From positions 1,782,175 to 1,846,174 of the forward strand of contig NZ_CP036425.1 in the NCBI RefSeq assembly GCF_007747445.1: 64,000 nt of DNA, written 5' to 3'. How positions within the stretch are numbered: position 1 is the first letter of the stretch; each line of letters begins with the position of its first letter. Positions 44,105 through 54,716 of this stretch are shown here, piece by piece. This DNA is from Poriferisphaera corsica. GTDB taxonomy: Bacteria > Planctomycetota > Phycisphaerae > Phycisphaerales > Phycisphaeraceae. The translations under genes and the position numbers were made by a program. The notes under the pieces were generated by a model, which made no database searches, was not told the origin of the DNA, and saw only the letters and a list, made by a program, of their open reading frames with translations.

Positions 44105-44920
44105 ATGAAAACAAAAAAAGCATTTACGCTAATTGAATTGTTAGTTGTAATTTCAATTATTTCACTACTGATAGGTATCTTGCTGCCTGCTCTGGGTGCT
44201 GCGAGAAAGACGGCGAGTAAGTTGTCATGTATGTCGCAGATGAGACAGATCGGGACTGCGAATCAGATTTTTGCGGTTGATCACGATGATTTTCTGGTGA
44301 AGCATTGGGAAAATAGAGGGCCGTTGGATGCAGACCCATCTGGATATGGCGGGGATGCATCTTGGGGTTACGAATTTCCCTTTCAGAGTTGGGATTACAT
44401 TTTGTCGCAAGTTGTGAGTAATAAATCAATTTTCAAATGCCCTGATGAAGATGGTGAAGTGATGTATAGCTCATGGGTTGGAGATTGGGCAGGCCCGAAT
44501 TTTGCGGATGCTCATATCCATGCCTCATATCGGCTTAATATGGGCCACCATGCAGACACGCGAAAAGGGATGCGTGTAAGTGATTTTAAGAATCCGTCAT
44601 CTTCTATGGTTATTGCGGAAGGTTTGAACGCTGAAGATCCGGAACGCTATCTTGCTCAATGGGTTTCTGATATGAAGTCTCGAGTTGGCGAACTAGTGGT
44701 CGATAATACGGCGTTCAATCGTCATGGCGGCGGTACGACAGAATCGATTAAGGATGGTATTTCAAATTATGTTTTTGTTGATGGTCATGCTGAATCAATG
44801 GCATGGGGCGTGAGTTGGGATCGATTGGGCGGTACGGATAGCAAGCCAGAAACGATTTGGCGAATGGAATATGAGGATAGTCGTTACAACAATGGTCAGC
44901 CTTTGACGAACCAGAACTGA
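44105..44920 (+). CDS. Prepilin-like protein with type II N-methylation signal
   Basis: A 271-residue protein. The N-terminus MKTKKAFTLIELLVVISIIS is a classic type IV pilin/type II secretion signal with Phe after the cleavage point and Glu at +5. The remainder has the planctomycete pattern of pseudopilin-like proteins: LLPALGAARKTASKLSCMSQ, and near the end YVFVDGHAESMAW, the so-called H-x9-DG motif. Such proteins occur in large families in Planctomycetota and Lentisphaerae/Verrucomicrobiota. Their role is unclear, perhaps linked to polysaccharide uptake or surface structures. The LacI regulator upstream and the operator-like pair suggest sugar-dependent expression. A lipid- or membrane-anchored partner may be the next gene. 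Confidence 0.88.
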   Translation: MKTKKAFTLIELLVVISIISLLIGILLPALGAARKTASKLSCMSQMRQIGTANQIFAVDHDDFLVKHWENRGPLDADPSGYGGDASWGYEFPFQSWDYILSQVVSNKSIFKCPDEDGEVMYSSWVGDWAGPNFADAHIHASYRLNMGHHADTRKGMRVSDFKNPSSSMVIAEGLNAEDPERYLAQWVSDMKSRVGELVVDNTAFNRHGGGTTESIKDGISNYVFVDGHAESMAWGVSWDRLGGTDSKPETIWRMEYEDSRYNNGQPLTNQN

Positions 44921-44964
44921 TTGAGAATTAGTTAGATTATTCTTTGCACTTTTAGGTGATCATT

Positions 44965-45462
44965 ATGAGTTTAAAAGAAAAGCTTGAACAAAATAAGCCG
45001 CTGAGCATGATAGTAATGTTGTGTGTGATAGGACTATCTTTGAGTTCTGTGTGTTACTACATGCTTGGCGGTGGTGGGGTCGTGAGAGATTACGAGCAGG
45101 CGTTCTTTACGGTTGATGATGGCGTGAACTATTTCGCGGCAGATGCGATGAATGTGACGGGGTTTGAGCATGAGGGGCAGATCGCGTATCGAGCGTATAT
45201 ATTCCGTGACGGAGATGGGGAGCCGTTTGTGGGGTATATGGAACGGTATACTGCTGCAGGTCGCAAAGCTGCACTGAAAGCGATGGCGGATTCAAAGGCT
45301 GGGAAGCCTACAAGCTTGAGTTTGCCGTTGGTCGATCAGGAGGTCAAGAAGCCGGGCGATAAGTCTTGGACGAAACGATCAAATCCAAGAATTGGTCGGG
45401 TGGTCCGTGTGGTTGGGGTGGATGGTTCGAGTCGAAAGATCGAGCCGGTTTACCCTGATTAA
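44965..45462 (+). CDS. Hypothetical single-pass membrane protein
   Basis: A protein of 165 residues from the ATG at 44965, with AGGTGA eight bases upstream; a GTG at 44956 is less likely. Residues ~14-32 (SMIVMLCVIGLSLSSVCYY) are one membrane helix, and the remaining ~130 residues are probably outside. They include FFTVDDGVNYFAADAMNVTG and GQIAYRAYIFRDGDGEPFVG. I recall similar small proteins beside prepilin-like genes in planctomycetes but know no function. It lies 44 bases after the prepilin-like gene and before a strong terminator, so both share a transcript. Confidence 0.68.
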   Translation: MSLKEKLEQNKPLSMIVMLCVIGLSLSSVCYYMLGGGGVVRDYEQAFFTVDDGVNYFAADAMNVTGFEHEGQIAYRAYIFRDGDGEPFVGYMERYTAAGRKAALKAMADSKAGKPTSLSLPLVDQEVKKPGDKSWTKRSNPRIGRVVRVVGVDGSSRKIEPVYPD

Positions 45463-45748: not shown

Positions 45749-47716
45749 ATGTCGCTCGATTCAACTATTCATGCTAAGGCAATTGAACTCATCAAGCTGA
45801 ATTACGAAATGACAAGTGCGGCAGGATCGGGTCATCCGACGAGCGGTGCAAGTTTGGGGCATTTGGTCACAGCGCTAATGTACGCGCATATGCGGTACGA
45901 GCCGAGCAATCCGAGTCATCCGGGGTCGGATCGATTGGTTTTGAGTGAAGGGCATGCTGTACCCATTGTATATGCGGCGTGTGCTGACAAGGGGGTGATG
46001 ATTGGAAAGGATAAAGAGAGTTGGCGGGCGATGACGCGGGCAGATGCATTGACGCTGCGTCAGTTGGATTCTGTCGTGGATGGGCATCCGAATCCTGTAG
46101 AAGGGTTCCCATTTTTTGACGCGGCAACCGGCTCTTTAGGGCAAGGGTTAAGTGTTGCTGCTGGGCTTGCGATTGCAGCTCGCGCGGATCAATTAGATAA
46201 GCGGATTTTTGTATTGATCGGTGACGGTGAATCACGTGAGGGACAGATTTGGGAGGCGGTTGATTTTTTAAAGGACCATGACCTGAAGGCAGTATGTCCG
46301 ATTTTCAATTGCAATGTATATGCACAGTCTGACAAGGTGAGTCCACAGCAGGGTTGGGAGACGACGGAGAAGAAACTAGCTGCGGTGGGTTATGAAGTTT
46401 TGGTGATTGATGGTCATGATCCGAAGCAGATTATGGATGCGCTGAATCGTCATGCTGAGGTACAAGCGAGTGGTGTTGGTGAGCCTGTGGCAATTGTCGC
46501 TAAGACAGTGAAAGGATGGGGAGCTGAATCGCAGCAAGGGAATGGTCATCATGGTTCTGCAGTGAAAGCTGGAGAAGCTCTTGAAGCGGTGCTAGCGGAA
46601 TATGATGAGAAGGGTAAAGCGTTGGGTGCGTACGCATTGGGTGGTTTACGCGTACCGGATATGTCGCCTCGGAAGAGTGTGAAACGTGAGACAGGTGATT
46701 CGGTCGGATTTGATAAAGCGCTTGAGCAGTTTGGGATGGGCGATGTGATTGAGAAGGGGCAGATCGCGACGCGGAAAGCGTACGGTGTGGCAGTCAAGGC
46801 GCTTGGGCATGTGAATACTGAAGTGTTCAGCTTGGATTGTGATGTTCAGGGCTCAACATTTGCGAGTATGTTTGCGAAAGATGAGTCAATCAATAGCCGC
46901 TTTGTTGAGTGCCGAATTGCAGAGCAGAATATGATGTCAGTTGCAGCGGGTTTGAGTGCAGGTGGTAAGATTCCATTTGCATCAACGTTCGCGAAGTTTG
47001 CTGCAAGGGGATATGACCAGATTGAGATGGCGGTGAATAGTGGTGCAAATCTGAAGGTTGTCGGATCACATGCGGGGATTACATTGGGAGCGGATGGCCC
47101 GAGCCAGATGGGGATGAGTGACGTGGGCTGGTTCCGAACATTTACGACGATGAAACGGCCTAATGGCGAGCCAGGTTTTTATGTGCTGACGCCGAGTGAT
47201 GGGTACCAATGCTATTCGCTAGTTAGAGAGATGGCGAAGTATGACGGGCCATGCTATTTACGGACGTTGCGTTCTGATACGGAATTTTTGTACAGTGATG
47301 ATGATGAATTCAAATTGGGTGGGCATGAAGTGCTGTGTAAAGGAAAAGATTTATTGATCTGTGCGAGTGGGCATATGGTGCATGTGGCAAGTGCGGCGTT
47401 GGAGCAGTTGTATGATGAGGGCGTTGATGTGACGCTGGTTGATATGTATTCATTGCCGTTTGATGGGGATGCGATTTTGGACTTGGCGAATGAGTGTGAA
47501 GGTCGAATTTTAACACTTGAAGATAATTATGGTGGCGGAATGGGGAGCGCGGTTGCCGACGTGATCGCGGCAGATGGCGGGGGTTTTGAAGTGAACCAGA
47601 TGTATGTGAAGAAGTGTCCGAAGAGTGCACTGAGCGGAGAAGAAACTTTACGTGCTTGTGGTTTAGGGATCGAGGATGTCGTGCGTGAAGCGAAGGAAAT
47701 GCTTGGAATTAGTTGA
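45749..47716 (+). CDS. tkt: Transketolase
   Basis: A 655-residue enzyme containing both the N-terminal thiamine diphosphate-binding half and the pyrimidine-binding half in one chain. Conserved parts are SAAGSGHPTSGASLG, LVLSEGHAVPIVYA, GSLGQGLSVAAGLAIA, the TPP motif GDGESREGQIWEA through NCN, RFVECRIAEQNMMSVAAGL and HAGITLGADGPSQMG. It moves two-carbon units between ketoses and aldoses in the pentose phosphate pathway, needing thiamine diphosphate and magnesium. The NCN in place of the common DxN is a minor variation. It is a stand-alone gene between two terminators. Confidence 0.95.
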   Translation: MSLDSTIHAKAIELIKLNYEMTSAAGSGHPTSGASLGHLVTALMYAHMRYEPSNPSHPGSDRLVLSEGHAVPIVYAACADKGVMIGKDKESWRAMTRADALTLRQLDSVVDGHPNPVEGFPFFDAATGSLGQGLSVAAGLAIAARADQLDKRIFVLIGDGESREGQIWEAVDFLKDHDLKAVCPIFNCNVYAQSDKVSPQQGWETTEKKLAAVGYEVLVIDGHDPKQIMDALNRHAEVQASGVGEPVAIVAKTVKGWGAESQQGNGHHGSAVKAGEALEAVLAEYDEKGKALGAYALGGLRVPDMSPRKSVKRETGDSVGFDKALEQFGMGDVIEKGQIATRKAYGVAVKALGHVNTEVFSLDCDVQGSTFASMFAKDESINSRFVECRIAEQNMMSVAAGLSAGGKIPFASTFAKFAARGYDQIEMAVNSGANLKVVGSHAGITLGADGPSQMGMSDVGWFRTFTTMKRPNGEPGFYVLTPSDGYQCYSLVREMAKYDGPCYLRTLRSDTEFLYSDDDEFKLGGHEVLCKGKDLLICASGHMVHVASAALEQLYDEGVDVTLVDMYSLPFDGDAILDLANECEGRILTLEDNYGGGMGSAVADVIAADGGGFEVNQMYVKKCPKSALSGEETLRACGLGIEDVVREAKEMLGIS

Positions 47717-47744
47717 GAATTTTAAATAGTACGAATAATATTTG

Positions 47745-47776
47745 AAGCGGCAATGTTGTGCATTGTCGCTTTTTTT
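47745..47776 (+). terminator. Transketolase terminator
   Basis: Stem AAGCGGCAATG / CATTGTCGCTT with one G-T pair and loop TTGTG, then seven T. Confidence 0.88.
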
Positions 47777-47801
47777 ATTTTTCGTTTTAAGGAGGTGAAT
47801 T

Positions 47802-48407
47802 ATGGTTGAATGGAAGCAGATGTGGGATGAGCGTTATTCTGAGAAAGAATATATATATGGGAGGGAGCCGAACGAATTTTTGGCAAGTGTGACAGATCGG
47901 TTACCTCAGGGTGGCCGTGCGCTGTGTTTGGCTGAAGGGGAAGGGCGTAATGCGGTGTGGCTGGCAAAACAGGGGTTTGATGTTGTGGCTGTTGATATGT
48001 CAGCGGTTGGTCTGGCGAAAGCGGAACAGTTAGCTGAAGATGAGGGTGTTTCGATCGAAACAGTCTGTACAGATCTTGAGAATTTCGAGATCGGTCATGA
48101 GCAATGGGATGTGATTGTAGTGATTTTTGTGCCGGTGCAGCCAGCACTGCGCAAGAAAATTTATCAATCAGTTAGGGATGGATTAAAAGCGGGAGGTAAG
48201 TTTGTGATTGAGATGTATACGCCGCGCCAACTAGAAAAAGGGACTGGCGGTGGATCGGATATCAATGTGATGGTCGATGAATCGATCATCCGTAAGGAAT
48301 TAGTTGGATTAGATTATGAGATTCTCGAAGAAATGGATCGTGAGATCATTGAGGGAAGCTATCACACAGGTGATAGTGCGGTCATCCAAGTGTTAGCAGT
48401 AAAATAG
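47802..48407 (+). CDS. SAM-dependent methyltransferase, TehB-like
   Basis: A 201-residue class I methyltransferase. It begins MWDERYSEKEYIYGREPNEF, as in TehB/thiopurine-type enzymes. The SAM-binding motif I is ALCLAEGEGRNAVWLA, followed by FDVVAVDMS, where Asp contacts the ribose. VIVVIFVPVQ is motif IV and LKAGGKFVIEMYTP motif VI. Relatives methylate small molecules such as tellurite, selenite or thiols; the substrate cannot be read from the sequence. AAGGAGGTGA in front of the ATG is a near-perfect ribosome-binding site. It is a single-gene unit between two terminators. Confidence 0.88.
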   Translation: MVEWKQMWDERYSEKEYIYGREPNEFLASVTDRLPQGGRALCLAEGEGRNAVWLAKQGFDVVAVDMSAVGLAKAEQLAEDEGVSIETVCTDLENFEIGHEQWDVIVVIFVPVQPALRKKIYQSVRDGLKAGGKFVIEMYTPRQLEKGTGGGSDINVMVDESIIRKELVGLDYEILEEMDREIIEGSYHTGDSAVIQVLAVK

Positions 48408-48433
48408 TTGATAGAAGTGAATTGTAGAATACT

Positions 48434-48467
48434 AAAAGGGCAGCGAATCATCGTTGCCCTTTTCTTT
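48434..48467. terminator. Bidirectional terminator
   Basis: Stem AAAAGGGCA-G-CG / CG-T-TGCCCTTTT followed by CTTTT. It lies between the convergent methyltransferase and sigma-factor genes. Confidence 0.85.
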
Positions 48468-48476
48468 TGATGTTGC

Positions 48477-49943
48477 TTAGGTGTAGGTCATTGCTTGCAA
48501 CTTTTGGTTGAGTCGAGGTTCAGCGAGGTAATTGAGCATGTTGAGGGTGAAGTCACCTTGCATGGATTTATGTGAGCCGATGCTGTCGAAGAAGAAAGAT
48601 GTATTGACGATGACGCGGCCGCTACCGATATTACCAACGACAAGGATTGGTTTACGTGTTGGTTTAGGGCATGCGATACGGTAATGGTGGCTTGTTGGTA
48701 GGACGGCTTGATCGTTTTGTAGGAGTATTGTGGTTTCGGGCTTTGGGATGAAGACCGGGCCGCAGCCGGGGATGCTGAGTGAGTCGCCGGGGGCGAGACC
48801 TTGGATGATGGGGTGACGTTTTAGGACGGTGCTTTTGAGGGGGATGTGGCAAATGTTGGGGTGGACGTGGTGGTAGCCGAGGTACGACTGGGCGAGCATA
48901 AGATTTTGTAAGCTGTGGTGATGGTGGCCAGGGATTGCGCCGCCACAATGCCCTTCGTTGAGCAGGCCAACACCTGATTCGACGGCTTCGGTGATGGCAC
49001 GGATGATGGTTGGGCTGATGGCGAAGTTGTAGCCAAGGGTGATAACATCGAGTGTCTTGAGTGCTTCGGCGTTAGTCGCGTCCATGTAACCTGCGTTGAA
49101 GGAGAATTCGCGGAGTGAGGCTTCAACGGGGCCGTAGTCGATGGACCCGGGTTCGATGAGGCCTACGATGTGGAGGTTGGGATGAGTGATGCGGCCCATA
49201 TTGATGAGTTGGAAGGCGAAGTGTAATCGTGTGCCATGCTTACTGCGGAGCATGTGTGATTGTTGAGAGATAAAGATACCGATGCGGATGGGTTTGAGCG
49301 TGCGGTCGCGTTTGTGAGGAGACATGGGGAGTAGGTGAGTGTTTGTTGGGGCAACGTGTTCGGGTGTGTAATTGAGGACAGCGGATACGAAGAGATGATC
49401 GTTGCACAAATCGTCATAAGTATCGAGCTGCATCTCTTTGAATGTTGAGCGCAAAGCGTATTGTGCATCTGCGAGTCGGCGTGATGCGGTAGATTTTGAG
49501 ATCTGTTTTTGTTCTGCAATTTGGTAGAGCGGTTTGTGTTGGATGTGGTGATGGATGATGTAGGACTGATATTCTTTGGAGATTTGGTTTAGTGCGTGGT
49601 CGAGTCTGTAATAGAGCGATTCCCAAGGAATGGTATGCTCGGGAAGGGTTGCTTTTGTTTCACGGCGGAGGCGTTGGGATTGCTGGTGTCGGTTGATGGA
49701 GATGGCGGTATTGCGAGCAGTGCGCGCGAGCCAAGCGAGGTGGTTGCTATGAATGTTTTGAAGATGGTTCGCGAATTTAATGAGTGTTTCTTGGATCGCA
49801 TCGTCGGTATCAGCAGAATCTTCGATGTATTTACGGCAGATGCTAGTGATGTATGGGGTGACTTCACTGACAAGGTCTGCAAAAGTATTTTCATCCAGCG
49901 TTTGGATGTAGCGGTTTACGAGTTCTTGAAGTCGTTCCTGCAT
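48477..49943 (-). CDS. Sigma-70 ECF-like factor fused to ThuA/GATase1-like domain (third of three)
   Basis: A 488-residue protein. The N-terminal MQERLQELVNRYIQTLDENT leads into sigma region 2 (~25-90: DTDDAIQETLIKFANHL, AWLARTARNTAISINRHQQ) and region 4 (~115-170: YQIAEQKQISKSTASRRLAD). After a conserved linker (DHLFVSAVLNYTP) a ~260-residue alpha/beta domain follows: IRIGIFISQQ, TLDVITLGYN, SGVGLLNEG, HPIIQGLAPGDSL and GSGRVIVNTS. This resembles the ThuA/GATase1-like fold. The ATG at 49943 lies two bases after the upstream stop; a longer frame from 50003 overlaps that gene and was rejected. Last gene of the triplet. The sensor role of the C-terminus is inference. Confidence 0.85.
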   Translation of the reverse strand: MQERLQELVNRYIQTLDENTFADLVSEVTPYITSICRKYIEDSADTDDAIQETLIKFANHLQNIHSNHLAWLARTARNTAISINRHQQSQRLRRETKATLPEHTIPWESLYYRLDHALNQISKEYQSYIIHHHIQHKPLYQIAEQKQISKSTASRRLADAQYALRSTFKEMQLDTYDDLCNDHLFVSAVLNYTPEHVAPTNTHLLPMSPHKRDRTLKPIRIGIFISQQSHMLRSKHGTRLHFAFQLINMGRITHPNLHIVGLIEPGSIDYGPVEASLREFSFNAGYMDATNAEALKTLDVITLGYNFAISPTIIRAITEAVESGVGLLNEGHCGGAIPGHHHHSLQNLMLAQSYLGYHHVHPNICHIPLKSTVLKRHPIIQGLAPGDSLSIPGCGPVFIPKPETTILLQNDQAVLPTSHHYRIACPKPTRKPILVVGNIGSGRVIVNTSFFFDSIGSHKSMQGDFTLNMLNYLAEPRLNQKLQAMTYT

Positions 49944-49945
49944 GG

Positions 49946-51421
49946 CTATTGGTGTGCTGTTAGTAATGATTGTTTTTGTTTGATGCGAGGTTCGGCGAGC
50001 CAATTAAGCATTTGGCGGATGAAGTTGTTGTTACCACCTCGAAATTTTGGATGTTCGCCGATGCTGTGAAAATAGAATGACGTATTAATAATGATTCTAC
50101 CAGACCCCAGATGGCCTGTAAGAAGTACGGGTTTTTTGATTGGAGTTGGGTGCTCTACATATTGTGAAGCAGGTGAAGGTCGTACGGGTTGTATGTCTTC
50201 GATGAGAATTTTGGCATTCGCTTTTGGGATAAACACTGGTCCACATCCAGGTATAGGTAATTCGGTGCCTTTTGATAAGCCCGGGATGATTTTATGTGAA
50301 TGCTTGACGCAGCTTTGGGTTGGTATATGACATCGGTAAGGGTGTGTGTGGTGGTATCCCAAGTATGTGTCAGAGAGTAGGAGTTGCTGGATTTTAGGAT
50401 GATGTAATCCTGGGAAAATAACACCTGCGTGGCCCTCATTGAGAAGTCCGACTCCGGATTTGACGGCTTCATGTATAGCATCGATCACGGATGTAGCTAA
50501 CACACTGTTGTAGCCGAGTGTAATCACGTCGAGTGTTTTCAATGCTTCGGTATCAGTTGCATCCATATATCCGGCATTGAAAGCGTACTCGCGGAGCGTA
50601 GATTCGATCGGACCATATTCGATTGTTCTGGGTTCAATCAGCCCAACGATCCGGACGTTTGGATGCTCGAAACTACGTAGATTTACGATCTGAAAACGCA
50701 TGAGTGAATGATTACCGTTGCGATTCTTTTTAAAAAAAGATTGATGTGAAATAAAAACACCAATACGAAGTGGTGTTGATTGATTGTTGTGTGCGGTAAG
50801 TGATTCAATTTCAAAAGAATTGGGTACGGGCGTGTGTTGAGGTGTGTAATTGGCTATCGCTGTAACGAACAAATGATCATTGCATAAGTCTTCGAATGTA
50901 TCGAGTCCGAGATCTATGAAGGTGGTGCGGAGTTGATGTTGAGCTGCTGCCAATCTACGTGAAGCTGTTGCACGTGAGATGTGCATTGTGTTGGCAATTT
51001 CATAGAGAGGAGTGTGTTGGAAGTGGTGTTGAATGATATAGAATTGGTGTTCTTGTGTAAGGTTATTAAGGGCTTGATCGAGTCGATAGTAGAGTGATTC
51101 CCAGGGGATGGTATATTCGGGGAGTGTGGCTCTCGCTTCACGGCGAAGGCGTTGAGATTGCTGATGACGGTTGATTGAGATGGTGGTATTTCGCGCGGTA
51201 CGAGCGAGCCAAGCGAGATGGTTATTGTTGATGTTGAGGATATTGTTAGCGAACTTAATTAGTACTTCCTGAACGGCATCGTCGGTGTCGGAATTATCTT
51301 GGGCATACTTTCGGCAGACACTATAGATGAAGGGTGTTACTTCATTAACAAGCTCCGCAAAGGTGTTCTCGTCCATTGCGTGGATGTAGCGATTAATGAG
51401 TTCTTGAAGACGTTCCTGCAT
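49946..51421 (-). CDS. Sigma-70 ECF-like factor fused to ThuA/GATase1-like domain (second of three)
   Basis: A 491-residue protein. Region 2 is at ~22-91 (DTDDAVQEVLIKFANN, AWLARTARNTTISINRHQQ), with region 4 at ~115-167 (IANTMHISRATASRRLAAAQ). The linker DHLFVTAIANYTP is shared with both neighbours. The C-terminal domain (~218-480) has LRIGVFISHQ, NVRIVGLIEP, FNAGYMDATDTEALKTLDVI, GVGLLNEGHAG, IPGCGPVFIPK, GSGRIIINTSFYF and MLNWLAEPRIKQKQ. It is the closest relative of the third gene: the first ten residues are nearly identical. It starts two bases after the stop of the first gene (TAA TT ATG), so translation is coupled. A typical ECF factor has under 200 residues, so the extension more than doubles the length. 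Confidence 0.85.
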   Translation of the reverse strand: MQERLQELINRYIHAMDENTFAELVNEVTPFIYSVCRKYAQDNSDTDDAVQEVLIKFANNILNINNNHLAWLARTARNTTISINRHQQSQRLRREARATLPEYTIPWESLYYRLDQALNNLTQEHQFYIIQHHFQHTPLYEIANTMHISRATASRRLAAAQHQLRTTFIDLGLDTFEDLCNDHLFVTAIANYTPQHTPVPNSFEIESLTAHNNQSTPLRIGVFISHQSFFKKNRNGNHSLMRFQIVNLRSFEHPNVRIVGLIEPRTIEYGPIESTLREYAFNAGYMDATDTEALKTLDVITLGYNSVLATSVIDAIHEAVKSGVGLLNEGHAGVIFPGLHHPKIQQLLLSDTYLGYHHTHPYRCHIPTQSCVKHSHKIIPGLSKGTELPIPGCGPVFIPKANAKILIEDIQPVRPSPASQYVEHPTPIKKPVLLTGHLGSGRIIINTSFYFHSIGEHPKFRGGNNNFIRQMLNWLAEPRIKQKQSLLTAHQ

Positions 51422-51423
51422 AA

Positions 51424-52875
51424 TTATTGGTGGACTGTCAGTGATGATTGTTTTTGTTTAAGGCGAGGCTCAGCGAGCCAATTAATACAATTGGCAAGGA
51501 AGTTGCCTTGTATTTTTGGATGATTGTTCATGTGACTGATGTTGGTCATGTTGCAGATGACGGTTCGGCCTTTACCGATGTGACCAGAGACGATCGCGGG
51601 GCAACGTATTGGGCGATCGATGGGAAATTTGTTGTTGTAAGATGAAGCTAATAGATTTTTTTCGACAATCAATTGTGCATCGGGTTTGGGAATGAAGATC
51701 GTACCGCATCCAATAGCTGTGATTGAATCTCCAGGCTGAAGGCCTTTTAGGATAGGGTGTTTCTTACGAACTGTTGCAGGACATGGCTGGCAGCACTGAA
51801 TGCCAGCTCCTGGGACATGATGAAAACCGAAACATTTTTGTGCAAGCATCAAGCGGTGTAAGCGGGGTGAATGGTAACCGGGTATACGACTACCGATGCG
51901 GGATTCACTGAAGAAACCGACCCCTGAATGGACTGCGTCATAGATGGAGTCAAGCACTGCATTTGGGGTGGCGTAATTCGTGCTAACGAAAATGACATCA
52001 AGTGTTTTTAGATTTTCCGTGTTGGTAATGTCCATGTAGCCACCAGTAAATTCACGCTCACGAAGCGTTGCTTCAATTTGAGGGCATTTAATAGAGCCGG
52101 GCTCGATGAGGCCGATTATACGGACGTTGGAGCAATTTTTGAGGAATGTGGTATTGTAAAGTTGAAACCATGTGCTGAGGTAGATCTGTTTAAAGTGGTA
52201 GTTTTCGGGGGTTTCTAAGGAAAATTGTGAGATGTATACGCCAACGTTAATCGTAGGGGTATTAGGATCGTAATCAGTTGTTCTGTAAGTTGGGGCAGGG
52301 GTATAGTTGAGTATGGCGTGGGTGAAGAGGGCGTCAGTACAAATTTCATCAAGTGTATTGAGATTAAGACCACGGAACACATTACGGAGTTTTTTGCTGG
52401 CGGCGGCGAGCCTACGTGAGATGGTGGCTACTGAGCATGATCGCTGACTGGCAATAGCCGAAAGAGTTTGGTGTTGAAGAAAATGCGAGAGGATGAGTGT
52501 GCGTTCTTCGTCTGTAAGCTGTTCTAGAGCAATATCGAGTCGTGTATAGATAGCATCCCAAGCGATAGACTCTTCGGGCATGGTTGCGAGATGCTGGATA
52601 CGTTGGCGTTGTGATTGAGCTTTACGGTTGTAGCTAATGGCGATGTTGCGCGCGGTGACAGCGATCCAAGCTTTGAGATTGGTGTTGATGTTTTGTGCAT
52701 GTTGGGCGAGTTTGATGAAGGCGTCTTGGATGACATCTTCGTGATTGGCCTTGTCGACGAGATATTTATTGGTGACGCTTGAGACGAGGGGATATAGCTG
52801 GTCGACAAGCTCCGCAAAGCACTGCTCGTCGCAAGTCACCTGATAATGGCATAATGTCTTATTGATGTCTGCCAA
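51424..52875 (-). CDS. Sigma-70 ECF-like factor fused to ThuA/GATase1-like domain (first of three)
   Basis: A 483-residue protein, first in the operon. Region 2 (~18-88) reads NHEDVIQDAFIKLAQHAQNI and AWIAVTARNIAISYNRKAQ; region 4 (~112-168) has AIASQRSCSVATISRRLAAA. The C-terminal domain has INVGVYISQF, NVRIIGLIEPGSI, GGYMDITNTENLKTLDVIFV, GVGFFSESRIG, HPILKGLQPGDSI, IGCGTIFIPK and GKGRTVICNM. It is the most divergent of the three and contains extra cysteines (GIQCCQPCPATV, IGCGTIF). The HPIxxGL and GxGR patterns are those of ThuA-like proteins. Promoter and pyrR start lie in the divergent 222-base gap. No anti-sigma factor gene is adjacent, so the C-terminus may regulate the sigma part directly. 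Confidence 0.85.
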   Translation of the reverse strand: MADINKTLCHYQVTCDEQCFAELVDQLYPLVSSVTNKYLVDKANHEDVIQDAFIKLAQHAQNINTNLKAWIAVTARNIAISYNRKAQSQRQRIQHLATMPEESIAWDAIYTRLDIALEQLTDEERTLILSHFLQHQTLSAIASQRSCSVATISRRLAAASKKLRNVFRGLNLNTLDEICTDALFTHAILNYTPAPTYRTTDYDPNTPTINVGVYISQFSLETPENYHFKQIYLSTWFQLYNTTFLKNCSNVRIIGLIEPGSIKCPQIEATLREREFTGGYMDITNTENLKTLDVIFVSTNYATPNAVLDSIYDAVHSGVGFFSESRIGSRIPGYHSPRLHRLMLAQKCFGFHHVPGAGIQCCQPCPATVRKKHPILKGLQPGDSITAIGCGTIFIPKPDAQLIVEKNLLASSYNNKFPIDRPIRCPAIVSGHIGKGRTVICNMTNISHMNNHPKIQGNFLANCINWLAEPRLKQKQSSLTVHQ

Positions 52876-53064
52876 ATTTGCCCCGAGAAAATGGAATTGC
52901 GCTTACGGAAAGCGGGATGCACCGCATTGGATTAAATCATGGGATAAAGCAGGTAGATCGTCAAGCATGGTGGGAAATCAATATATCAAGGGTGATTGAT
53001 TGTGAGAATGGGTAAAAAATGGCAATAAAGCATGTTTGAGCTTGGGGATATAGTTGGGGCGCTT

Positions 53065-53076
53065 TATAGAGAGGGC
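53065..53076 (+). promoter_or_regulatory. Possible PyrR-binding RNA motif in the pyrR leader
   Basis: TATAGAGAGGGC resembles the core AGAGAGG of the Bacillus PyrR-binding loop (UCCAGAGAGGCU). It lies 21 bases before the pyrR start, where binding could block translation. No full antiterminator/terminator pair was seen, so this is tentative. Confidence 0.35.
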
Positions 53077-53097
53077 GGTGTTGAGTAAGATTGCAGT

Positions 53098-53652
53098 ATG
53101 AAGAAGCTAGCAGATGCACAAGAGGTCGGAAAACTTGTTAGTGAGCTTGCTGGAAAAGTGAGTGGGCGGTTATTGGGTAATGGAGGCAAAGCATCTGATT
53201 GGGCATTGGTGGGGATCAGGAATCGCGGAGATAAGCTAGCTGAGCGGTTGGCAAAGGCGATTGGAGAAGAAAAATTTGCAGATCGTGTTGGCGTGCTGGA
53301 TATCACGTTGTACCGAGACGATTTGTCGGAAGTGGCGGCTCAGCCGATCGTACAGACGACAGAAATCCCGTTTAGTGTGGATGGAAAAGATGTGGTTTTG
53401 GTGGATGACGTACTGATGACGGGGCGGTCAGTGCGGGCAGCGTTGGCATCATTGATGGATTTTGGGCGGCCTAAGCGGGTGTGGTTAGCGGTTTTGGTAG
53501 ACCGAGGTGGCAGAGAATTGCCGATTCGTGCGGATTTTGTTGGTTTAGATCTATCCAAGGGAGCTGTTGGGTTGGAAGATGGGGATCATGTGCAGGTATT
53601 ATTAGATGAGGTGGATGAAGTGGATGCGATTGAGGTGCGTGAAGCAAATTAA
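53098..53652 (+). CDS. pyrR: Bifunctional pyr operon regulator / uracil phosphoribosyltransferase PyrR
   Basis: A 184-residue type I phosphoribosyltransferase. The PRPP-binding motif VVLVDDVLMTGRSVRAAL (~99-116) is characteristic of PyrR. WALVGIRNRGDKLAERLA, VGVLDITLYRDDLSE and LVDRGGRELPIRADFVG complete the family pattern. It binds pyr mRNA when UMP is plentiful and can also make UMP from uracil. It is directly followed by pyrB, the usual arrangement. A motif like the PyrR target lies just upstream. The ribosome-binding site is weak (GAGTAAGA). Confidence 0.93.
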   Translation: MKKLADAQEVGKLVSELAGKVSGRLLGNGGKASDWALVGIRNRGDKLAERLAKAIGEEKFADRVGVLDITLYRDDLSEVAAQPIVQTTEIPFSVDGKDVVLVDDVLMTGRSVRAALASLMDFGRPKRVWLAVLVDRGGRELPIRADFVGLDLSKGAVGLEDGDHVQVLLDEVDEVDAIEVREAN

Positions 53653-53714
53653 GTGTAAATCCGTCAGAACGGAAGCAAAACAGAAATAATGGAGGGGCGG
53701 GATTGGGTTGAGAC

Positions 53715-54716
53715 ATGAATCCCGATTTGAAGGGTAATGCGATCGTGAATAGCGAGCTGAATGTAAAGAGCGAATATCAATGGCAGCATAAGCATCTGCT
53801 GGGTATTGAGGGGCTGGATGCGGAGGATGTTCGTTTTCTTTTGAAGACGGCTTTGAGCTTCGAGAGTGTATCGACACGGAGTGTGAAGAAGGTCCCAGCT
53901 CTGCGAGGCAGGGTTGTGGTGAATCTGTTTTTTGAAGATTCGACACGCACACGCGCAAGTTTTAATCTCGCGGCCAGCCGATTGAGCGCCGATGTACTGG
54001 ATTTTTCAGCAAAAGCATCCAGCGCATCCAAAGGGGAAACGTTGAGTGATACCGTAAGAACAATTGAGGCGATGGGGATTGATGCGATTGTTTGTCGTCA
54101 TAGCTTAAGCGGGGCGGCAGTACAGATTGCAAAATCCGTCAAATGCTCTGTCGTGAATGCTGGGGATGGGCAACATGCTCACCCGACGCAGGCATTACTG
54201 GATGCATACACGATTGCAAAACGTAAGGGATTAACCGATACCTTTGATTTCACGGGATTGAAGGTGGCGATTGTGGGCGACATTGCTCACAGCCGAGTGG
54301 CGAGATCAAATATTAAGTGTTTGCAGAAATTGGGGGCAGAAGTGATTCTGGTTGGACCACCAATGCTGGTGCCGAGCACTTTTGAAGCTCTGGGTTGCCG
54401 TATTTCTCACCGATTAGATGAAGTACTACCGGAGGTTGATGTCGTGAATATGCTTCGCGTGCAGTTTGAACGGTTGGAAAGTCAAGCGTTTGCGAGCAAG
54501 CGTGAGTATGCTGCATTTTATGGGCTAACGGAGGAAAAAATGAAACTGGCGAAGAATGATTTGCTGGTGATGCACCCGGGCCCAATGAACCGTGGATTGG
54601 AGATTGAGTCTCCGGTAGCAGATGGACCGAACTCGGCAGTACTCGAGCAGGTCGCAAATGGATTAGCAGTCAGGATGGCAACGCTATTCTTGGTGACTGG
54701 GGTGAATGACGCCTGA
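53715..54716 (+). CDS. pyrB: Aspartate carbamoyltransferase catalytic subunit
   Basis: A 333-residue enzyme of ~310 expected plus a short N-terminal extension. The carbamoyl-phosphate motif FFEDSTRTRASF has STRTR at 76-80. SASKGETLSDTVRTIEAMG, HPTQALLDAYTI, VAIVGDIAHSRVARSN, the aspartate-binding VVNMLRVQFER, and VMHPGPMNRGLEI are all present. It joins carbamoyl phosphate and aspartate, the first committed step of pyrimidine synthesis. No pyrI (regulatory subunit) or pyrC is adjacent. It lies 62 bases after pyrR and 32 before gmk, in a nucleotide-synthesis operon. Confidence 0.96.
   Translation: MNPDLKGNAIVNSELNVKSEYQWQHKHLLGIEGLDAEDVRFLLKTALSFESVSTRSVKKVPALRGRVVVNLFFEDSTRTRASFNLAASRLSADVLDFSAKASSASKGETLSDTVRTIEAMGIDAIVCRHSLSGAAVQIAKSVKCSVVNAGDGQHAHPTQALLDAYTIAKRKGLTDTFDFTGLKVAIVGDIAHSRVARSNIKCLQKLGAEVILVGPPMLVPSTFEALGCRISHRLDEVLPEVDVVNMLRVQFERLESQAFASKREYAAFYGLTEEKMKLAKNDLLVMHPGPMNRGLEIESPVADGPNSAVLEQVANGLAVRMATLFLVTGVNDA

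Follow-up and report, generated by a model that had tools for sequence, protein, structure and literature searches.

A tandem array of ECF sigma factors joined to GATase1-like modules in Poriferisphaera corsica, with a candidate metal site

Results

Three adjacent minus-strand genes of Poriferisphaera corsica KS4, at 48477-52875 of the window (the whole 64,000-nucleotide stretch analysed here), each join an ECF-type sigma factor to a C-terminal GATase1-like domain (Table 1). The window genome is a single contig, reported as 4,291,168 bases (PMC7783415). Inspection of the open reading frames found no ATG near the start of P0003. The genes are separated by only two bases, and the junctions TAA-TT-ATG and TAG-CC-ATG given in a first-pass annotation of this DNA are exact. 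In pairs the three proteins are 41-60% identical over nearly their full length, P0001 and P0002 being 60% identical, implying that their common C-terminal domain is not a chance resemblance. The annotation had also described two patterns shared by all three: GxGR is indeed present in each, but P0001 and P0003 alone match HPIxxGL exactly, P0002 having HKIIPGL.

Table 1. Features of the array and its surroundings, in window coordinates
Feature	Position	Strand	Evidence or remark
Inverted repeat, 13 pairs	48434-48463	.	between convergent genes, behind the last gene; scored as terminator-like for the + strand alone
P0001	48477-49943	(-)	third gene; ECF sigma + GATase1-like module; 488 aa; start codon ATG, homologous to the P0002 start
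P0001 GATase1-like module, residues about 217-485	48489-49295	(-)	by homology
P0001 quartet stretch, H359, C365, H377, C394	48762-48869	(-)	module alignment
P0001 sigma half, residues 1-172	49428-49943	(-)	Pfam/NCBIfam matches
P0002	49946-51421	(-)	second gene; ECF sigma + GATase1-like module; 491 aa
P0002 GATase1-like module, residues about 216-484	49970-50776	(-)	profile, structure model, Foldseek, VIA
P0002 quartet stretch, H358, C364, H376, C393	50243-50350	(-)	module alignment
P0002 sigma half, residues 1-172	50906-51421	(-)	Pfam/NCBIfam matches, structure model, Foldseek
P0003	51424-52875	(-)	first gene; ECF sigma + GATase1-like module; 483 aa; TTG start, uncertain
P0003 GATase1-like module, residues about 208-480	51436-52254	(-)	profile, structure model, Foldseek
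P0003 quartet stretch, H353, C361, H373, C390	51706-51819	(-)	module alignment
P0003 sigma half, residues 1-171	52363-52875	(-)	Pfam/NCBIfam matches, structure model, Foldseek
Divergent intergenic region	52876-53097	(-)	array promoter should lie here; conserved motif not found

The array is flanked by a methyltransferase gene on one side and by phosphoribosyltransferase, carbamoyltransferase and guanylate kinase genes on the other. No anti-sigma gene adjoins it, the immediate neighbours being the methyltransferase and the phosphoribosyltransferase; this check covered seven flanking proteins other than the transketolase-like ORF at 45749-47716. Among the proteins scanned, no metal-related gene was recognised near the array, and the protein at 44956-45462 had no match at all. 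Also near the array is a gene (window 44105-44920) that has a prepilin-type N-terminal methylation motif and matches DUF1559 weakly.

From the gene spacing, P0003, P0002 and P0001 are probably co-transcribed as one operon. Two minus-strand terminator-like sites inside the genes (51507-51493 and 50777-50756) count against a single unbroken transcript; the region holds 11 such sites where 4.5 are expected, and chance occurrence is common here. That the inverted repeat behind P0001 serves as a terminator for the minus-strand genes is a guess. A conserved self-promoter was sought in two ways and rejected: upstream of the array the two Poriferisphaera species resemble each other only at the start of the phosphoribosyltransferase gene, and a scan with the sigma-70 consensus gave 8 sites against 7.2 expected. 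No RNA family matched within 47600-53800.

All three proteins begin with the ECF-type sigma part that had been proposed, of about 172 residues, as both sequence and fold matches confirm. Sigma70_r2 (PF04542) exceeds the Pfam cut-off in each, and TIGR02937 (sigma70-ECF) exceeds the NCBIfam cut-off in each over approximately residues 20-166; region 4 alone passes its Pfam cut-off in P0003 only. In Foldseek, the models of P0002 and P0003 match E. coli sigmaE, SigW and SigK. The proteins belong to the ECF (group 4) sigma-70 factors, having region 2, and region 4 within a compact two-domain protein. In PHROGs they match sigma and transcription-regulation families and one family of unknown function, with no match for the module. 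Sigma-70 region 2 gives 21 matches in the window genome at E 0.01, 20 of them above the cut-off. The next best sigma match in this genome (L004:874-2115 (-)) is an ECF factor of tethered design: it has a hydrophobic stretch, and its outer part is of another kind.

The annotation had assigned the C-terminal domain, about 265 residues long, to a GATase1/ThuA-like fold. Predicted structure and fold comparison support this for P0002 (mean pLDDT 80.5, pTM 0.61) and P0003 (82.5 and 0.64), the two proteins that were folded; pTM values of 0.61-0.64 say little about how the sigma and module halves would pack against each other. A profile search with the module matches 3rht, a GATase1-like protein, at E 5.6e-4. 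The best Foldseek match of the P0002 module is again 3rht (E 2.0e-7), and that of the P0003 module is the ThuA-like 4jqs (E 5.1e-8); for both models, the top of the list is made up of 3rht and ThuA-like chains. VIA on P0002 returns GH42 domains, GATase1-like and ThuA-like proteins and an acylase in its first 22 rows, with Z between 13.9 and 16.5; a dimethylformamidase-like iron site, an idea raised by this list, was considered. Family profiles do not claim the domain. None of 14 modules reaches the Pfam cut-off for ThuA (PF06283) or GATase1_like (PF07090), ThuA giving E 0.23 in one of them, and no convincing NCBIfam match was found among 22 modules (best E 0.024).

This fold class includes active enzymes, which raises the question of whether a working amidotransferase or hydrolase has been joined to the sigma factor. 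That seems very improbable. The elbow columns, 151-153 of the alignment, lack cysteine in all 26 aligned modules, making an amidotransferase unlikely, and the module evidently has, on alignment and structure model together, a GATase1-like fold without the nucleophile cysteine.

How widely is this architecture distributed? A genome-wide search, which the annotation had called for, found the module in the window genome in P0001, P0002 and P0003 only. Soluble fusions of sigma factor and module total 20 modules in 14 genomes: the window genome has three, ZRK32 four, G428 two and 11 others one each. The triplet is not a fixed unit. Strain ZRK32, a sister species in the same genus (G001; genome reported as 5,234,020 bases, PMC10945688), has four genes at the corresponding position (L033), flanked by the same neighbours as the window array, and elsewhere there are two copies or one. 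A second tandem case, of two adjoining sigma-module genes, occurs in G428 (L121:3339-8335 (-)).

Matches were found in 10 of 51 genomes surveyed in the family (E 1e-6), 13 of 251 in the order (E 1e-10), 40 of 397 in the class (E 1e-3, mostly weak) and 5 of 392 in the phylum (E 1e-6); in the order, class and phylum samples only the best 6-9 candidates per genome were scored, and rare copies may be missed. Two of the five from the phylum sample are short stand-alone frames resembling ThuA-like proteins. The only soluble fusion found outside the order, in the class sample, is that of G114. In draft contigs of G017 and G791 the sigma and module parts are in separate frames, and the frame in G792 runs to the end of its locus.

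The module could instead bind no ligand and act through a separate protein, which it recruits or by which it is inhibited. The extensions of ECF42 and ECF57 are thought to act in this way (PMC8999054). Across ten loci, however, crude gene calls show no common partner: the only shared neighbours are the sigma gene itself, in nine of the ten, and one set of three long frames. The exception is L097, where an overlapping frame was called instead of the sigma gene. An unlinked partner would be compatible with this result, but we consider such an interaction module unlikely.

The same module family also occurs in tethered or exported form. It lies behind a membrane helix on ECF factors at L027, L044 and L047 and, as the outer part, on a Ser/Thr kinase at L043:1507-3630 (-). 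Profile E values of 2e-13 to 2e-27 place these four in the family, but unlike the soluble fusions they carry the module beyond the helix and lack the His/Cys quartet described below. At L046 the module follows a helix in a frame without any other domain, and at L045 it follows an export-signal-like start. These six modules make up the tethered/exported set; further matches lie outside it, two more in G149 among them. The end of the module profile, from GxGR to WLA, is also weakly matched by very long, apparently exported proteins (L055:1012-3153 and L063:976-3171).

The best 19-residue hydropathy value is 0.85-1.60 in the frames of all 20 soluble modules, against 2.06-2.72 in five of the six tethered or exported ones; the sixth, at 1.26, begins with an export-signal-like stretch. 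The soluble fusions have no membrane helix and are most likely cytosolic. In the module tree the 20 soluble and six tethered/exported modules fall on opposite sides of a branch (support 85/81), although the branch to L027 is very long. In the sigma tree the soluble fusions (19 rows) lie on one side of a branch (77/71); L044 and L047 pair at 100/97, with L027 apart from both, at a position without branch support. Together, the trees and domain layouts imply that the module has been joined to partners of no fewer than two kinds: ECF factors on the one hand and a kinase on the other. As such it appears to be an exchangeable sensor.

A quartet of His and Cys residues is common to the soluble modules. 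The unedited alignment of all 26 modules (20 soluble, six tethered or exported) has five columns with H or C in 15 or more of the 20 soluble rows, and four of these (186, 202, 215 and 236) span 51 columns. Column 215 is H and column 236 is C in every soluble row; columns 186 and 202 have H or C in 17 and 18 rows, and each of the five leftover cells has an H within two columns. In the tethered and exported modules the corresponding counts are 6, 0, 1 and 0 of six at columns 215, 236, 186 and 202. The quartet histidine that belongs to HP is present in all six of them and is, alone, unspecific. On a tree built without the quartet columns, H and C have interchanged at least five and at least four times at the first two positions (states scored by eye; 20 and 19 rows). 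Such interchange is usual for metal ligands, and the conservation pattern suggests that the quartet is a candidate metal site. The four residues may nevertheless lie apart in the folded protein, and the prediction is poor in the loop that joins the first two (pLDDT below 50 at residues 357-359 of P0003).

The annotation had imagined a sugar or metabolite signal. Nothing here speaks for sugar sensing in particular: ThuA resembles the module in fold, and its Pfam model reaches only E 0.23 in one of 14 modules. What is conserved is the quartet, and it points to a metal or redox input. Under a redox reading, conserved cysteines would act as a switch, either through a disulfide that can form and open again or by reacting with oxidants; some soluble anti-sigma factors work in this way. 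The cysteine invariant in 20 of 20 soluble modules, and absent from that column in all six tethered ones, would fit. But it is the only invariant cysteine, and since H and C are exchanged at the other positions a fixed disulfide is impossible in many members, leaving a redox switch quite improbable.

A more serious alternative is that the GATase1-like pocket binds a sugar or other small molecule and that the quartet is a structural zinc site holding a loop. Structural zinc sites of His/Cys make-up are common, and ThuA-like proteins and a GH42 galactosidase domain are among the structures of similar fold. A common fold proves no ligand, however, and the single ThuA match is no firmer than given above; moreover, the fold persists in the tethered modules, which have no quartet, implying that it can do without one. 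We regard such a metabolite sensor as rather doubtful, and metal as a first guess for the signal.

Finally, we compared the histories of the two halves. The two gene junctions agree at 98 of 120 bases, making tandem duplication the evident origin of P0001, P0002 and P0003. In the module tree P0003 pairs with Z1 of ZRK32 (100/99), implying that the first duplication took place before the two Poriferisphaera species separated. In trees of nine rows each, the two halves disagree. The sigma halves group P0001 with P0002, weakly (74/78), and reject P0002 with Z3 (p-AU 0.0006), whereas the module halves support P0002 with Z3 (98/96) and reject P0001 with P0002 (p-AU 0.003). These groupings were named for testing after the trees had been seen, and a module tree without the quartet stretch does not recover P0002 with Z3 with support. 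In amino-acid sequence P0001 and P0002 are 62-82% identical in windows of residues 1-200; in windows 176-225, 201-250 and 226-275 they are 46, 28 and 42% identical, against 54, 60 and 84% for P0002 and Z3.

It appears from these comparisons that the sigma halves of P0001 and P0002 have stayed alike within the genome, while their sensor halves are older and have diverged. Gene conversion of the sigma halves would be the simplest reading. Synonymous sites are saturated or nearly so while dN is 0.18-0.62, which shows that purifying selection acts on the genes. The conflict between sigma and sensor trees lends some weight to the earlier proposal that the genes may work together.

Discussion

Overall, the best reading of the array is the one-component regulator first proposed for it: an ECF half, a GATase1-like half and no adjoining anti-sigma gene. 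Our full explanation, to which we give a probability of about 0.5, is that these are cytosolic one-component ECF sigma factors that respond to different inputs and use partly shared promoters. As in other members of its family, the sigma2-sigma4 half would bind RNA polymerase and promoters, with the GATase1-like half built in as its regulator, taking the role that an anti-sigma factor would otherwise play. A ligand at or near the His/Cys quartet, most likely a metal ion, would alter the packing of the module on sigma2/sigma4, and this change would switch promoter use in one direction or the other. The tree conflict suggests that different inputs probably reach overlapping sets of promoters through P0001 and P0002.

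More tentatively, the array may belong to a cytosolic metal-sensing sigma lineage. The fold of a dead amidotransferase, which on membrane-tethered ECF factors and a kinase would serve as an extracytoplasmic sensor, would here operate in the cytoplasm and have a His/Cys metal site; within the tandem array, gene conversion would keep some sigma halves alike while the sensors diversify, bringing several inputs to one promoter set. If the array does feed several inputs into one regulon, the design is a simple one, with one gene per signal.

ECF factors with a regulatory extension and no anti-sigma factor are an open area; extensions are known in 26 ECF groups, 15 of them unstudied (PMC8999054). 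We found no description of ECF factors joined to GATase1/ThuA-like domains in the open-licence literature; papers on planctomycete genomes (2012, 2020) and on ECF re-classification (2021) may contain one, and a word search of PMC11266412 gave no mention of sigma factors. The idea of an on-board sensor is directly testable, with an identifiable fold and a short list of candidate ligands. The tethered relatives, which lack the quartet, are natural controls, and both the host and its sister species have been cultured.

Several known systems are instructive. By sequence profile, the closest solved structure is the 3rht-type GATase1-like protein of Planctomyces limnophilus; it stands alone, without a sigma half, and Pfam places the modules outside PF07090. 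In being soluble ECF factors with a folded C-terminal regulatory domain, P0001-P0003 are like ECF41 (PMC8999054). They are not members of that family: its extension is SnoaL-like where theirs is GATase1-like, and none of the three has a SnoaL Pfam match. By analogy, they may work like CorE or OrbS. The metal-sensing CorE and CorE2 (ECF238, formerly ECF44) have a short cysteine-rich domain as their extension and a CXC in the linker between sigma2 and sigma4 (PMC8999054), whereas the extension here is a 265-residue GATase1-like domain. Linker residues 91-110 contain no cysteine, and no CXC, in any of the three proteins, excluding them from the CorE-like group (ECF238/ECF44). In OrbS of Burkholderia cenocepacia, from a different phylum, C-terminal cysteines sense a metal, iron, and act like an on-board anti-sigma factor; the abstract describes no folded GATase1-like domain (PMC9023288).
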